From contig NZ_CP064187.1 in NCBI RefSeq assembly GCF_015353075.1, positions 744,001 through 808,000 on the forward strand: a DNA stretch of 64,000 nucleotides, in the 5' to 3' direction. This DNA comes from Rhizobium sp. 007. Lineage in GTDB: Bacteria; Pseudomonadota; Alphaproteobacteria; Rhizobiales; Rhizobiaceae. The translations under genes and the position numbers were made by a program. Positions 12,110 through 16,481 of the stretch are shown piece by piece (the first letter of the stretch is position 1; every line of letters starts with the position of its first letter). The notes under the pieces are model-generated. The model was not told where the DNA came from and ran no database searches. It saw only the letters and a program-made list of their open reading frames with translations.

Positions 12110-12890
12110 CCGGTACGGAGATTACGCTGCTGCTGCCGAGAGGTGCGAGCGGCGTTTACGAGGGTGCCGCCCGCGATGTGCGCGACGGCGCAGCCCTCAG
12201 CGTCGGCGAGCTCCGCCACGGCCAGGTCTTCATCAAGGTCGTCGATGTTTCGAACGGCGCAGGTGCCGTGCCTGTCGCCGTCAGCGCCGCCAAGGGGCGC
12301 AATTCGTCGCTGCTCATCAGCCATGCTTCGCCCGCCGTCACATCGGCAATCGCCGCTATGTCTTCCGATCAGCGCCCGCCGTTGGTCAATCTTGGCGACG
12401 ACGTTCCGGCAACTGCCGGCAATGTCTACAACTTCGCCTCGGGCGAACTCGACAGCGCGCTCGAAGGCATCCGGGCGGCTGCCGCGGGCGGCCACAAGAA
12501 GGTGATGGTTTTCGCGCCGAAGGATTTTCCGCCTGCGTCTGAGATGCGGCTCGCGGATGCCATCCGCGCAGGCGGCTGCACCTATGCCGGGACGCACGTT
12601 TCGATCTCAGCGATGCGGCCGCCGCCAATGTCGTGCAGAAGTCGAAGGCCCAGCTTCAGCCGGCCGATACGGTCGTCATCCTCGGCAAGAGCGTCATCGT
12701 GCCGACGGTCGCCGGTGCGATCAAAGCAAGCGGCCAGGCGAATCTCGTTCTTGTCGGCACCAGCGCCTGGCTGTCCCATGCCTACGCGGACCCGGCCGTC
12801 GTCCTCGCCGTCGCATTCGATCAATTCGGCCTCGAAGTCGCGACACACCTTGGCGAAGATGCGCCGCCGGTGGCGGATTGCCGGTTCTGA
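12110..12890 (+). pseudogene. 5'-truncated, frameshifted periplasmic-binding-protein-like gene
   Basis: The frame starts abruptly in ITLLLPRGASGVYEGAARD, which looks like the first beta strand and helix of a Leu/Ile/Val-binding or LpoA-like fold (compare the LLLP..G family motif). It continues with the PPLVNLG and VMVFAPKDF strands. Near 12598 the coherent protein changes frame and resumes as FDLSDAAAANVVQKSK to a stop at 12890. No start codon or signal peptide remains. The missing 5' end and the frameshift make it a relic. The exact parent family is my inference. Confidence 0.6.
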
Positions 12891-13011
12891 CAGAACGTCA
12901 CGGCGGTATTTCGTGACAAAGGCCTGCCAAATGACCATGGAGCATGTAGACGACATGCCTGCCGGTGCGATCCACGGTTGCGCTCCTTGGAGCAATTGAT
13001 AGAATCGTAAC

Positions 13012-14240
13012 ATGATCCACCGCGCTTTCCGCTACAAGCTCGCTCCGACCGCCGAACAGGAAGTCCTGTTGCGGCAGTTCGCGGGTGTTGTGCGGCTGGT
13101 CTATAATCTGGCGCTGGAGCAGCGCAGGGACTGGAGACCGGTAACCGCTTGAACGACATCGCCCAGGCGCGGGAATTGACCGCCCTGCGGGCCGCGTTCG
13201 ACTGGATTGCCGCCGTGCATGTGACGCCCCAGCAGCAGGCCCTGCGCGATCTGGATAAGGCGTATGCCAACTTCTTCGCCGGGCGCGCAGGATATCCCTC
13301 GCCCCGCAAGAAGGGCGTGAACAGCGCCTTCCGCTTTCAGGGGCGGGAGATCGAGGTCAAGCGCCTGAACGGCAAGTGGTCCGCCGCGCGCCTTCCCAAG
13401 ATCGGCTGGGTGAAGTTCCGCGACACGCGGCGCCTGCGTGGCAAGACCATGAATGTGACGGTGAGCCTGGCGGCGAACGGCTGGCACATCGTCTTCGCCT
13501 GCGAAATCGACCATGCCGTCCCGCAAAACGATTTGCCCGCCGTGGGGATCGACCGGGGCGTGGCGAACACGCTGACGCTTTCGACCGGGGAGCATTGGTG
13601 GATGCCTGCCGGCCTTGCGGAGATCGAGCCCAGGAAGCGCCGGGCCCAGCGCGTTCTGGCGCGGCGCAAGCGCGGGTCGCGTCGCCACGCGAAGGCCCGC
13701 CGCCGCGTTGCAGCCTTGCAGGCCCGTGCTGCCCGCATCCGGCAGGATTGGCGGCACAAGGCCAGTCTTGATATCGCCCGTCGCTTCGCAACGGTCGTGC
13801 TGGAAGACCTCGCCACGCGCAACATGACGCGCAGCGCCAGGGGAACCGTGGACGCGCCCGCAACCAACGTCTGCCAGAAGGCGGGCCTGAACCGGGCGAT
13901 CCTCGAACAAGGCTGGCACGGCTTTGAAACCGTGTTGGCCTACAAGCTCGAAGAACGGGGCGGATACCTGTGCAAGGTCGATCCCCGCCACACCTCGCAG
14001 ACCTGTTCGGCCTGCGGAGCCGTGGACAGGGAAAGCCGCGAAAGCCAAGCGTCTTTCCGCTGTTGCCAATGCGGCTTGCGCGCCCATGCCGACCACAATG
14101 CTGCAATCAACATCCTGCGTCGGAACACGGCGTCTATGATCGTGGAGGAAGGGCAGCCGCTCTCCGTTGAAGCGATAACCATCGGCGGAGCTTCGCGCCC
14201 CCTCGGAAATCCCCCCGCTTTCAAGCGGGGGAAGATGTTA
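13012..14240 (+). pseudogene. tnpB: TnpB RNA-guided nuclease gene with an N-terminal frameshift
   Basis: The first 40 or so codons (from ATG 13012: FRYKLAPTAEQEVLLRQFAG, then VYNLALEQRRDW) are in one frame and stop at 13150. The rest continues in another frame from about 13130 (GNRLNDIAQARELTALR). The RuvC triad is intact: with residues counted from 13149, Asp135 in VGIDRG, Glu219 in VVLED and Asp315 in HADHN. The zinc finger CSACG...CCQCG is also intact. The loss of a few bases around 13130 probably inactivates it unless ribosomes shift. The frame has no stop at the element's end and runs on into antisense sequence of the ABC-F gene. Confidence 0.75.
14120..14236 (+). ncRNA. Candidate omegaRNA (reRNA) region at the 3' end of tnpB
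   Basis: In TnpB elements the guide RNA scaffold overlaps the 3' end of tnpB and the right end. Here that region holds the GGCGGAGCTTCGCGCC stretch and the terminal CCCCCGCTT/AAGCGGGGG hairpin. A guide would start at the element boundary just after it, reading into the ABC-F 3' end. The RNA extent is inferred from the family. Confidence 0.45.
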
Positions 14241-15765
14241 ACCCTACCAGCTGCCGACGCAAAAAGAACCTTTCGGGGCTCTCCACTTCCACAAGCCGCC
14301 GCTTCTCGATCAGCCAGAAGCGGCTGCCGACGGCGCGCACGAAGCTGCGGTCGTGGGAAACGAGCAGGCAGCTTGCCTGGTGCGCCATCAGCTCGCCTTC
14401 CAGCGCTTCCTGCCCGTCGATGTCGAGATGGTTGGTGGGTTCGTCGAGCAGGTAGAAGTTCGGGTTGGAGAGCCGGAGCACCAGCATGCCGAGCCTTGCT
14501 TTCTGCCCGCCGGAAAGCTGGCCGATGGGGCGGCCCTGCATCTCGATCGACATGCCGGCGCCGGCCAGCAGTGTGCGCGCGCGCTGGTCACCGACGTCGA
14601 AGCGGCGGATGATCGTGTCCATCGGCGTGTCGGCATCGCGCAGATCGGCAAGCGCCTGGTCGCCGTAGCCGAGCGCCAGCGAAGGCGTGGCCTTGATGCC
14701 GTTCTCGGCCGTCTCCGGGTTCGCGATCGCCTTGCGCAGCATGGCGATCAGCCGCGTCTTGCCGGCGCCGTTTTCGCCGAGCAGCACGATCCGGTCTCCC
14801 TGGCAGATGAACTGCCTGCCGGTCTTGAAGAGCAGCGTGCCGTCCGGCGTCTCAACCGCCGCATCGTCCAGCGTCACCAGCACCTTGGCATGCGTGCCGC
14901 GATTGGCAAGCCGGATCGCACCCGCCGAACGCTCCAGATGCGCGGGTTTTGCCGCATCCTCGAGTTTTTCGGCGCGCTGCTTCAGCTGCTTGGTCTTGAC
15001 GACCAGCAGGTCGCTGCCGGAATTGATGCCGATATTGTTGAGCTTCGCCGCCTGCTTGCGCAGTTGCTCCGCCGTCTTCATGTCGCGCTCGTAGCGGCGC
15101 GCATCTGCCGCATCGAGCTCGTCGATCGAAGCCCGCGCCCGGGAATAGGGCAAAGCGAAGATCTGCGATTGCTCCGGCCGCAGGAAGAGCGTGCGGTTCG
15201 TCACGGCGTCGAGGAAGGCGCGGTCATGGCTGGCCAGGATCACCGGCACGTCGCGGGGGAGCGCATTCAGCCATTCCTCCAGCCGCGCGATCTTGCCGAG
15301 ATCAAGATGGTTGGTCGGCTCGTCGAGCATCAAGAGGTCGGGTTCGGTCACCCAGACACGGGCAAGCATCGCCAGCCGCTGCCACCCGCCGCTGAGCGCC
15401 GAGAGCGAACGCCGGTGCAACTCCTCCGGCACCTCCAGAGATCCCAGCACGACATCGACGCGCCAGCTCTCGGTTACCGCCTGCTCCGGAGCGAGCGCAT
15501 CGAGAACGGCGTCGTAGAATGGCTTGGCGAATAGGGCAGGCGGCACATTCTGCTCGACATAGCCGACCGTCAGCCCGCGCGCCCTGGTGATGTCGCCTTC
15601 GGTCGGCTCCAGCGTGCCGGCGATGCAGCGGAAAAGCGTCGATTTCCCGCGGCCGTTGGCGGCCACGATGCCGATGCGGTCGCCAGCATTGACGACGAGA
15701 TTGAGCCTGGAAAACAAAGGGCTCGACAAGGTGATGCCGAGATTGCGGATATTGAGGAGAGTCAT
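14221..15765 (-). CDS. ABC-F family ATPase (ribosome-associated, possible antibiotic resistance factor)
   Basis: A 514-residue soluble protein with two ABC cassettes and no membrane segments. Cassette 1 has Walker A NGRGKST, signature LSGGW and Walker B LLMLDEPTNHLD. Cassette 2 has GENGAGKT, LSGGQ and YLLDEPTNHLD. The interdomain linker (about residues 235-290) is charged and helical, as in ABC-F proteins that act at the ribosomal E site; some of these eject antibiotics. The last dozen codons, including the stop, overlap the right end of the TnpB element, so the native C-terminus has been replaced. A leader ORF and hairpins lie upstream. Confidence 0.85.
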   Translation of the reverse strand: MTLLNIRNLGITLSSPLFSRLNLVVNAGDRIGIVAANGRGKSTLFRCIAGTLEPTEGDITRARGLTVGYVEQNVPPALFAKPFYDAVLDALAPEQAVTESWRVDVVLGSLEVPEELHRRSLSALSGGWQRLAMLARVWVTEPDLLMLDEPTNHLDLGKIARLEEWLNALPRDVPVILASHDRAFLDAVTNRTLFLRPEQSQIFALPYSRARASIDELDAADARRYERDMKTAEQLRKQAAKLNNIGINSGSDLLVVKTKQLKQRAEKLEDAAKPAHLERSAGAIRLANRGTHAKVLVTLDDAAVETPDGTLLFKTGRQFICQGDRIVLLGENGAGKTRLIAMLRKAIANPETAENGIKATPSLALGYGDQALADLRDADTPMDTIIRRFDVGDQRARTLLAGAGMSIEMQGRPIGQLSGGQKARLGMLVLRLSNPNFYLLDEPTNHLDIDGQEALEGELMAHQASCLLVSHDRSFVRAVGSRFWLIEKRRLVEVESPERFFLRRQLVGLTSSPA

Positions 15766-15771
15766 GATCGT

Positions 15772-15936
15772 TCTCTGGTCTTGACCGCGCGATCATCCAT
15801 CGAGGGCTCCTGGGCCATCATCGATGCGATGCGTCAGCCGTGGATCGAAATCGCAGACGCTCAAGCGATAAAGCTCGGCGCTGCAGGCCACAACGGGCAG
15901 ACCAGAAGAGAGGTTTTGCGAGAAAGGTCTCTGGTC
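15772..15936 (-). promoter_or_regulatory. Putative attenuator/SD-sequestration switch upstream of the ABC-F gene
   Basis: On the minus strand the 9-mer GACCAGAGA occurs twice: at the stop of the leader ORF (15928-15936) and six bases before the ABC-F start codon (15772-15780), where the ribosome-binding site should be. Between them TCTGGTC (15900-15906) can pair with either copy. Pairing with the first leaves the ABC-F start region free; pairing with the second would hide it. Ribosome position on the leader could decide. No T-run terminator is obvious. Confidence 0.6.
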
Positions 15937-16009
15937 AGCCCTGCAAACGCATTTGCAGGGCGTTGACGGGGCCGCGCTGACGGTTGAACCGGAAATAGTA
16001 ATTATGCAC
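15935..16009 (-). CDS. 24-residue leader peptide upstream of the ABC-F gene
   Basis: A GTG-started ORF with a textbook AAAGGAGGG six bases upstream. The peptide opens HNYYFRFNRQRG and ends LQMRLQG. The last eight codons lie inside a perfect 10-base-pair hairpin (GCCCTGCAAA...TTTGCAGGGC, 15938-15961), and the stop codon overlaps the first GACCAGAGA. The MRL sequence near the end recalls arrest-type leaders of macrolide-inducible genes, but that resemblance is only suggestive. It lies 169 bases before the ABC-F start on the same strand. A stalling leader controlling an ABC-F gene is the most economical reading. Confidence 0.6.
   Translation of the reverse strand: MHNYYFRFNRQRGPVNALQMRLQG
15938..15961 (-). 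promoter_or_regulatory. Hairpin covering the end of the leader ORF
   Basis: A perfect inverted repeat, GCCCTGCAAA and TTTGCAGGGC with a CGCA loop. A translating ribosome would melt it; one stalled upstream would leave it formed. Confidence 0.7.
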
Positions 16010-16178
16010 GCGACCCTCCTTTCTCTTTAGAGTGCAAGCATGAAATATCATCACCTATGCAGGAATGCAACCAAAGCGGTCGCATCAGGCACTTGCTCTG
16101 CGCGGCCGAACTTGCGCAGGACAGGCTGGCTGTTATAAGCGGCCCGACCGGGAAATTCTTGATTTAGGAGAGACGACC

Positions 16179-16481
16179 ATGGCGGGCGATGACGACGAAT
16201 ACGTCTATGACGAAGTGACGGGCGAATGGCGTCCGGCTTCGGAATTGGCTGCCGCCGCGCAGGCGGCCGTCGAGGTCCGCGACGCTGCCGGAAATATCCT
16301 CAACGACGGCGATTCCGTCACGCTCATCAAGGATCTGAAGGTCAAGGGTGCCAATCAGACCCTGAAGCAGGGCACGGTCATAAGGTCGATCCGGTTGACG
16401 GACAACCCGGAAGAGATCGACTGCCGCCACGACACTATCAAGGGCCTTGTCCTGCGCACGGAATTCGTCCGCAAGCGTTGA
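16179..16481 (+). CDS. PhnA-domain protein lacking the zinc ribbon
   Basis: A 100-residue protein whose C-terminal part (DAAGNILNDGDSVTLIKDLK through RTEFVRKR) is the PhnA/YjdM domain. In Escherichia coli this domain follows a four-cysteine zinc ribbon. Here the N-terminus is a short acidic segment (DDDEYVYDEVTGEWRPASEL) with no cysteines. GGAGAG precedes the ATG. Despite the name, the family has no proven role in phosphonate breakdown. Confidence 0.85.
   Translation: MAGDDDEYVYDEVTGEWRPASELAAAAQAAVEVRDAAGNILNDGDSVTLIKDLKVKGANQTLKQGTVIRSIRLTDNPEEIDCRHDTIKGLVLRTEFVRKR

Follow-up and report, generated by a model that had tools for sequence, protein, structure and literature searches.

In ermC-type attenuators, four segments of the transcript pair as 1:2 and 3:4 in the ground state and as 2:3 in the induced state. 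Upstream open reading frames (uORFs) are known to control ABC-F genes such as vmlR (PMC9226507), cplR (PMC10201436) and msrD (PMC10314930). Here we describe a leader open reading frame (ORF) upstream of an ABC-F gene in a stretch of 64,000 nucleotides from Rhizobium sp. 007 (contig NZ_CP064187.1, positions 744,001 to 808,000), hereafter the window. Judged from its conservation and from simulated folding, the leader region is probably an attenuator that acts in cis on translation of the ABC-F gene, under ribosome control and with an ermC-like topology. As in the ermC-type systems, a short leader ORF with its own ribosome-binding site precedes segments that can pair as 1:2 plus 3:4 or as 2:3, the predicted ground-state fold sequesters the downstream ribosome-binding site, and output would come from freeing that site. 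Unlike ermC, the leader would control an ABC-F gene and not a methyltransferase, and the hairpin covers the last leader codons and the stop codon, with the stall predicted around 12 codons before the stop, at Gly-Pro.

Among described ABC-F systems, Clostridioides difficile cplR and Bacillus subtilis vmlR are the closest (PMC10201436, PMC9226507). In these systems a uORF controls an ABC-F gene, translational and transcriptional attenuation are involved, and cplR has an anti-Shine-Dalgarno element, as is predicted here. The uORF consensus in these systems comprises 3-4 codons, MR[I/M] for CplR and MIN for VmlR, with the further short consensuses MK[L/Q] and MAGN for VmlR2 and LsaA (PMC10201436, PMC9226507). 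The uORF-controlled ABC-F genes in this comparison are Gram-positive and have very short uORFs, whereas the leaders described here have 20-27 codons in relatives, share a conserved RxRGPV, occur in Alphaproteobacteria and have no terminator-like site over the switch. In the Gram-negative uORF system toiL-topAI of E. coli, a stalled ribosome likewise unmasks a downstream ribosome-binding site; however, toiL pairs directly with the topAI site, while here a separate segment 3 is common to two partners, and the controlled gene is different (PMC12121999). The Arg-Gly-Pro core at the predicted stall site recalls the SecM, RAPP and RGPP arrest peptides, but the consensus R-G-P-V has Val in place of the second Pro of the R-A/G-P-P core (PMC12992588). 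Compared with SecM, the Arg register differs from that of RAGP, the leader peptide has 20-27 residues and its arrest is a prediction.

No description of this leader, the RQRGPV string included, was found in searches of the open-licence PMC literature, supplementary tables such as the S. meliloti ribosome-profiling (Ribo-seq) lists of small ORFs aside. Attenuated ABC-F genes are known elsewhere, and this leader is apparently new with respect to the literature searched. If the proposed attenuator is real, it would add a Gram-negative example that is widespread and has a long, sequence-specific leader, present in nitrogen-fixing and plant-associated bacteria on chromosomes and large plasmids. An uncharacterised ABC-F family would gain a readout, in that whatever stalls ribosomes at RxRGPV would name the substrate of the family, and a new arrest core would be predicted beside RAPP, RGPP and RAGP.

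The leader, its paired segments and their distribution

The earlier note on this DNA had described a 24-codon GTG-started leader with a Shine-Dalgarno sequence on the strand of the ABC-F gene, as well as a perfect hairpin over its last codons, and both are present in the window (Table 1). The leader ends around 170 bases upstream of the ABC-F gene. Its hairpin of 10 bp is GCCCTGCAAA-TGCG-TTTGCAGGGC (15961-15938); a 10-bp hairpin arose in 1 of 2000 dinucleotide shuffles of the 245 bases of this region. The 9-mer GACCAGAGA is found in two copies, one at the leader stop (15936-15928), where the stop codon is embedded in TGACCAG, and one before the ABC-F start (15780-15772). Between them lies TCTGGTC (15906-15900), which had been proposed to pair with either copy; indeed, segment 3 is complementary to both, and the pairings recur in relatives. 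A repeated 9-mer alone is common by chance (203 of 2000 shuffles), and its combination with a complementary 7-mer between the copies was seen in 3 of 2000. The arrangement in the window is above chance, and sequence comparison indicates that the case for the leader is far stronger from conservation than from the window by itself.

Table 1. Positions of the leader, the pairing segments, the ABC-F gene and the adjoining insertion element in the window.
Feature	Position	Strand	Remark
Leader Shine-Dalgarno, AAAGGAGGG	16014..16022	minus	GGAGG unchanged in 30/30 aligned relatives
Leader ORF, GTG start, 24 codons, peptide VHNYYFRFNRQRGPVNALQMRLQG	15935..16009	minus	read in the window sequence
Peptide-conserved codons, RQRGPV	15965..15982	minus	Gly and Pro in 114/114; dN/dS-like ratio 0.22
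Predicted stall site	Gly codon 15973-15971, Pro codon 15970-15968	minus	
Segment 1:2, 10-bp hairpin	15938..15961	minus	over the final eight leader codons
Segment 2, GGGC-U-GACCAG, GGGCUGACCAG	15931..15941	minus	3' strand of the hairpin plus leader stop codon
Segment 3, CUGGUC-U-GCCC, CUGGUCUGCCC	15895..15905	minus	anti-Shine-Dalgarno / antirepressor partner
Segment 4, AAGACCAGAGAA	15771..15782	minus	ribosome-binding region of ABC-F; sequestration by segment 3 is predicted
ABC-F ATPase	14221..15765	minus	controlled gene in the proposed model; last ~12 codons altered by IS200/IS605 element
tnpB, RNA-guided TnpB family	13149-14612 (by ORF)	plus	
tnpA, IS200-type	12582-13013	minus	weak partial match just below the Pfam cut-off

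A pattern scan for the hairpin plus stop gave a single occurrence in the genome of the window. The leader region had no Rfam match at the gathering threshold or at E ≤ 1, a tRNA/tmRNA search gave none, and a sigma-70 promoter scan of the leader region gave none. In relatives, a -10-like TAT motif clusters 44-35 bases upstream of the leader start, which is suggestive only.

ABC-F orthologues were detected by protein search in 36 of 37 genus genomes (that of the window included), 41 of 297 order genomes and 9 of 289 class genomes. From these, 66 upstream regions were collected (30 of the 36 from the genus, 28 further ones from the order, including G421, and 8 further ones from the class), and 64 carry a Gly-Pro leader followed by a hairpin. 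Automatic recognition succeeded for 54 of 57 genus and order regions, and the other three, G421 and the class regions were recognised by eye; this count is free of the bias of the leader score described below.

A covariance model of the leader found matches in 58 genomes of the family (297 searched), 41 of the order (297), 6 of the class (289) and 17 of the phylum (299), all 17 phylum matches falling within the window's own class. Gene and leader occur together in 38 order genomes, around 6 being expected under independence, and all six class genomes with the leader are among the nine with ABC-F. The three order genomes with ABC-F alone hold divergent Gly-Pro leaders on reading, namely RTRGPVFAPRLISRG (G570), RTRGPVLAPRLISRG (G615) and, by eye, LLWFGPRFALHVSS (G421). 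Leader-model matches without ABC-F, in G046, G388 and G610, are weak (E 8e-5 to 5e-4) and may be due to chance.

A DNA scan for RQRGPVxAL returned at least 119 stretches, and 100 of the 119 matches listed are short leaders. An ABC-F gene lies 108-226 bases downstream of 96 of these 100; for the other four, the fetched DNA ends before any ABC-F gene. None of the 19 non-leader matches listed lies upstream of an orthologue, one of them (L131) having a weak partial match of 29% identity. Genera named for 80 of the matches listed include Rhizobium, Mesorhizobium, Ensifer, Bradyrhizobium, Bosea, Aminobacter, Phyllobacterium, Labrys and Nisaea. Absence of the leader frame and pairing elements from orthologues, which the earlier note named as counting against its proposal, was not what we found: the leader frame and the hairpin persist, as do elements 3 and 4, throughout the Rhizobiaceae and the order, and more thinly in the class, down to ABC-F identities of 52-67% and with synonymous codon turnover.

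Selection on the peptide and on the RNA

Folding, codon and element counts used 151 unique sequences with a leader score of at least 7, chosen from the 156 unique sequences of 201 leader-bearing loci; the RQRGPV scan contributed 73 of the 151. Because the score rewards RQ, AL, LQG and a 12-codon tail, the codon table of 114 sequences leans to the typical leader class. Loci with an N-terminally partial ABC-F match (L048, L075, L107 and L209) were left out. Seven loci had no automatic leader (L080, L194, L207, L210, L228, L230 and L233); a Gly-Pro leader is present on reading in L080, L207, L228, L230 and L233, and L194 is cut off inside the leader. The putative ORF has a start codon and a Shine-Dalgarno-like sequence in 150 of the 151.

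All 114 unique leader ends compared have the Gly and the Pro, written with three and four different codons, respectively, and the residue that follows them is Val in 96 and Pro in none. The dN/dS-like ratio is 0.22 for RQRGPV versus 0.62 for the hairpin codons. Within the hairpin the residues vary, but not a letter changes in the GCC at its start, the GGC at its end or the TGA. Premature stops at codon -6, inside the hairpin, are found in several lineages (L008, L080/L228 and L207/L238); Gly-Pro is still in frame in these leaders, the tail is out of it, and the hairpin is intact. Because codons vary at RQRGPV with letters fixed in the hairpin and stop, and because premature stops leave the hairpin intact, the peptide signal appears to be RxRGPV and the ORF end appears to serve mainly the RNA. 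The premature stops also imply that the last leader codons are not the sensor, which refines the earlier proposal: as read from the aligned leaders, the conserved peptide part is R-x-R-G-P-V.

Two candidate sensors were rejected. The C-terminus of the leader varies together with the hairpin, QMRLQG, RACLQG, QAGLQG and RRSPQG being interchangeable, in addition to the premature stops. A +x+ macrolide motif (RQR) is not universal, as group-2 leaders have RQF and others RQC, RQH, TYG or SHG.

The 9-mer highlighted in the earlier note is present in both copies in the window, but as an identical string it was rejected as the conserved unit: exact GACCAG is found at the leader stop in 92 of the 151 sequences, before the ABC-F start in 107, and at both places in just 82. 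From the alignments, the conserved unit is a longer three-way complementarity of GGGC-U-GACCAG, CUGGUC-U-GCCC and (GGGC)AGACCAG, and the element-3 pattern GGT[CT][TC]GCC is present in 142 of the 151. Segment 3 is also complementary to the ABC-F ribosome-binding region, with as many as 11 bp in Mesorhizobium; in 120 of the 151, the best 11-mer of the 3:4 pairing ends 9-10 bases upstream of the ABC-F start. Since the 3' strand of the hairpin (GGGC) also pairs in 2:3, hairpin and antirepressor are mutually exclusive.

Among 41 diverse sequences, the pairs of hairpin 1:2 are kept in 99.0% of cells, and its covariation score is higher than in any of 500 shuffles. The 8-bp core of 2:3 is paired in 99.7% of cells in the same set and hardly varies, and the whole 2:3 structure is paired in 94.3% of cells versus 39-61% when slid. 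RNAalifold analysis of 21 Mesorhizobium-type sequences gave a fold with almost no covariation (-0.07 kcal/mol), in which 2 of 54 pairs had both partners changed.

A different hairpin, GCCCCGCG/CGCGGGGC, follows the same GPVxA in Ketogulonicigenium, Gemmobacter and some order genomes. RxRGPVxA or xxCGPVxA is kept in L230, L233, L248 and L250-L252 (two Rhodobacterales plasmids, of Ketogulonicigenium and Gemmobacter, and four order genomes), where hairpin and segments 3/4 differ, with equivalent logic in other letters; L250, for instance, has GTCTCATCGTCAGCC with GATGAGAC before the start as segments 3/4. L090, L148 (Aminobacter) and L181 have a typical leader and hairpin, but a search up to 75 bases from the leader stop gave no element 3; these loci possibly have a longer or altered switch.

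The predicted switch and competing explanations

In the proposed mechanism, the leader would be read to its end when no stall occurs, with segment 2 either covered by the ribosome or taken up again in the 1:2 hairpin, so that segment 3 (CUGGUCUGCCC) would pair with segment 4 and ABC-F would stay low. A ribosome stalled at the Gly-Pro of RxRGPV would open the base of hairpin 1:2 with its front edge, and the freed segment 2 (GGGCUGACCAG) would capture segment 3, releasing the ABC-F start. We infer translation of the leader, stalling of ribosomes on it and an output that is translational, not transcriptional. The stall would come from inhibition of the peptidyl-transferase centre, most likely by a drug that the ABC-F protein relieves.

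Folding was simulated with a ribosome mask from -13 to +15 around the P-site codon, which was moved along the leader, and the expected pairs of each pairing were computed. In the free RNA, the mean over the 151 sequences is 10.4 expected pairs for 3:4 and 1.2 for 2:3, shifting to 4.6 and 7.3, respectively, with Gly in the P site; once the ribosome stands at codon -6 or at any later codon up to the stop, 3:4 has recovered to 9.3-10.9. A ribosome at any of codons -12 to -7 (Gly, Pro, Val, x, Ala and Leu) favours 2:3, and the largest step of the switch coincides with the invariant Gly-Pro. For the window sequence, placing Gly in the P site lowers 3:4 from 12.07 to 0.10 and raises 2:3 from 0.08 to 10.95, and 3:4 stands at 12.04 with the ribosome at the last codon. 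Controls with shuffled downstream sequence gave a free 3:4 of 2.2 versus 10.35 for the real sequences, and a 3:4 loss of 0.65 versus 5.78. When the front edge was set to +12, +14, +16 or +18 (76 of the 151), the switch fell at Pro, Gly, Arg-Gly and Arg, respectively, its onset lying at most one codon from Gly. A set of 17 further leaders provided 16 usable ones (14 divergent and two from S. meliloti), L250 being left out with a wrongly parsed Gly-Pro; 2:3 exceeds 3:4 at Gly in 12 of the 16 and 3:4 falls by more than two pairs in 10, and three of five leaders with the different hairpin switch in the simulation. The suggestion in the earlier note that a stalled ribosome changes the pairing and opens the ABC-F start is thereby reproduced in silico for the window and for around two thirds of the relatives.

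Several results weigh against the attenuator. 2:3 outweighs 3:4 with Gly in the P site in 100 of the 151 sequences, leaving 51 without a crossover, and it does so in 80% of the shuffled controls too; because a weak 3:4 lets 2:3 win in those controls, the loss of 3:4 is the informative measure. The ribosome-binding region becomes only modestly more open, its mean openness over the 151 going from 0.27 to 0.38 and that in the window from 0.23 to 0.38. The exact switch codon varies with the assumed footprint, and some opening is already seen at codon -13 in 47 of the 151. Among the 16 further leaders, L230, L233, L242 and L256 remain OFF, L262 is ON even in the free RNA, and the 3:4 loss is absent in L241. 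By a simple duplex score, only 52% of sequences have a 3:4 pairing above the 5% null from mononucleotide shuffles, and the element-3 pattern is unmatched in L044, L090, L148 and L181. At the two exceptions among the 66 upstream regions, L244 has RQPV in place of Gly-Pro and L239 is an orthologue without a visible leader. The co-variation anticipated in the earlier note holds for hairpin 1:2, although two of its five measures, doubly changed pairs and further pair types, lie within the shuffles (59 and 56 of 500). The exact 9-mers are not constant, and 2:3 shows no covariation beyond shuffles in the 41 diverse sequences, 496 of 500 scoring as high; because 2:3 is nearly invariant, covariation is unable to support it.

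A possible but clearly less probable explanation is an intrinsic arrest with feedback, in which RxRGPV would be a slow RGPP/SecM-like arrest relieved by ABC-F or EF-P. Active ABC-F would then repress its own synthesis, and the leader would gauge ribosome health, not one drug. The invariance of Gly-Pro, in the face of the variants of the +x+ motif listed above, is consistent with it, as are the documented arrest cores RGPP, RAPP and RAGP (PMC12992588) and the action of EttA on MgtL (PMC11282234) and of MsrD on the MsrDL complex (PMC10314930). However, the fourth residue is Val, not Pro, and RGPV is not among the variants described in the part of PMC12992588 consulted, which also reports that the arrests of ApdA and ApdP are not rescued by EF-P; a patchy, partly plasmid-borne ABC-F gene is more like a resistance trait than a housekeeping loop. 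A little more speculative still, RxRGPV might represent a new arrest-peptide class kept in many alphaproteobacterial lineages for the chemistry of the Gly-Pro peptide bond, with ABC-F clearing the arrest, which would make the leader a homeostatic peptidyl-transferase gauge and not a drug-specific switch.

It is improbable that the leader is a general sensor of translation stress or starvation, opened by any ribosome on codons -12 to -7 whatever the cause. The simulation does favour 2:3 at all of these positions, and E. coli toiL senses many inhibitors (PMC12121999), but such a sensor leaves the Gly-Pro invariance and the peptide-level selection on the preceding RQR unexplained. We consider about equally doubtful a transcriptional output, in which leader translation would control premature (e.g. 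Rho-dependent) termination, alone or with a translational layer. Transcription attenuation is described for MsrD (PMC10314930) and VmlR (PMC9226507), and CplR uses both layers (PMC10201436). Against this, a consensus terminator scan, which covered intrinsic terminators only and did not search for Rho sites, found no hairpin plus U-tract overlapping segments 1-4, unlike in an intrinsic-terminator attenuator, and the predicted direct partner of segment 3 is the ribosome-binding region; the sole terminator-like site is within the coding part of the ABC-F gene and scores close to chance. Action of the leader peptide in trans, with RNA pairing secondary, as claimed for S. meliloti peTrpL (PMC7298713, PMC10117765), is very unlikely given that the C-terminal residues change with the hairpin and that several lineages have premature stops while keeping the hairpin. 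A functionless chance arrangement, which could appeal to the 9-mer repeat alone appearing in 10% of shuffles, is practically negligible in view of the leader frame and hairpin kept down to the lowest ABC-F identities given above, with synonymous codon turnover.

The ABC-F gene and its surroundings

The ABC-F protein of the favoured attenuator model has around 510 residues, with two ABC domains and a linker by sequence matches, and carries the database name ABC-F family ATP-binding cassette domain-containing protein. The curated ribosomal-protection model NF000355 scored 293.8 bits, below its cut-off of 380, and every ARE subfamily model among the best 25 listed was far below its own cut-off. 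Alignment offsets suggest an ABC-F without the Arm insertion of EttA, Uup and YheS, like two ExpZ-named chains (8buu and 6ha8), which we take to be VmlR-type. Arm loss is reported to be strongest in ARE1 and ARE2 (PMC6723617). The gene is patchy in distribution and occurs on large plasmids as well, among them two pSymA copies of S. meliloti that carry the leader; for the annotated pSymA copy, a gene table known to be incomplete lists no feature over the leader. The apparent Arm loss and a patchy, partly plasmid-borne gene are compatible with a resistance role.

The 3' end of the ABC-F gene contains an IS200/IS605-type element (12582-14260), and the final ~12 codons of the gene differ from those of relatives, whose end is uninterrupted. 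At another locus (L078, in G480), a Mutator-family transposase gene (Pfam Transposase_mut), presumably IS256-like, lies between the leader and the ABC-F body and separates the switch from the gene. Divergent from the leader of the window is a gene for a YjdM/PhnA-domain protein (16065-16481, plus strand) of 138 residues by its first start codon.

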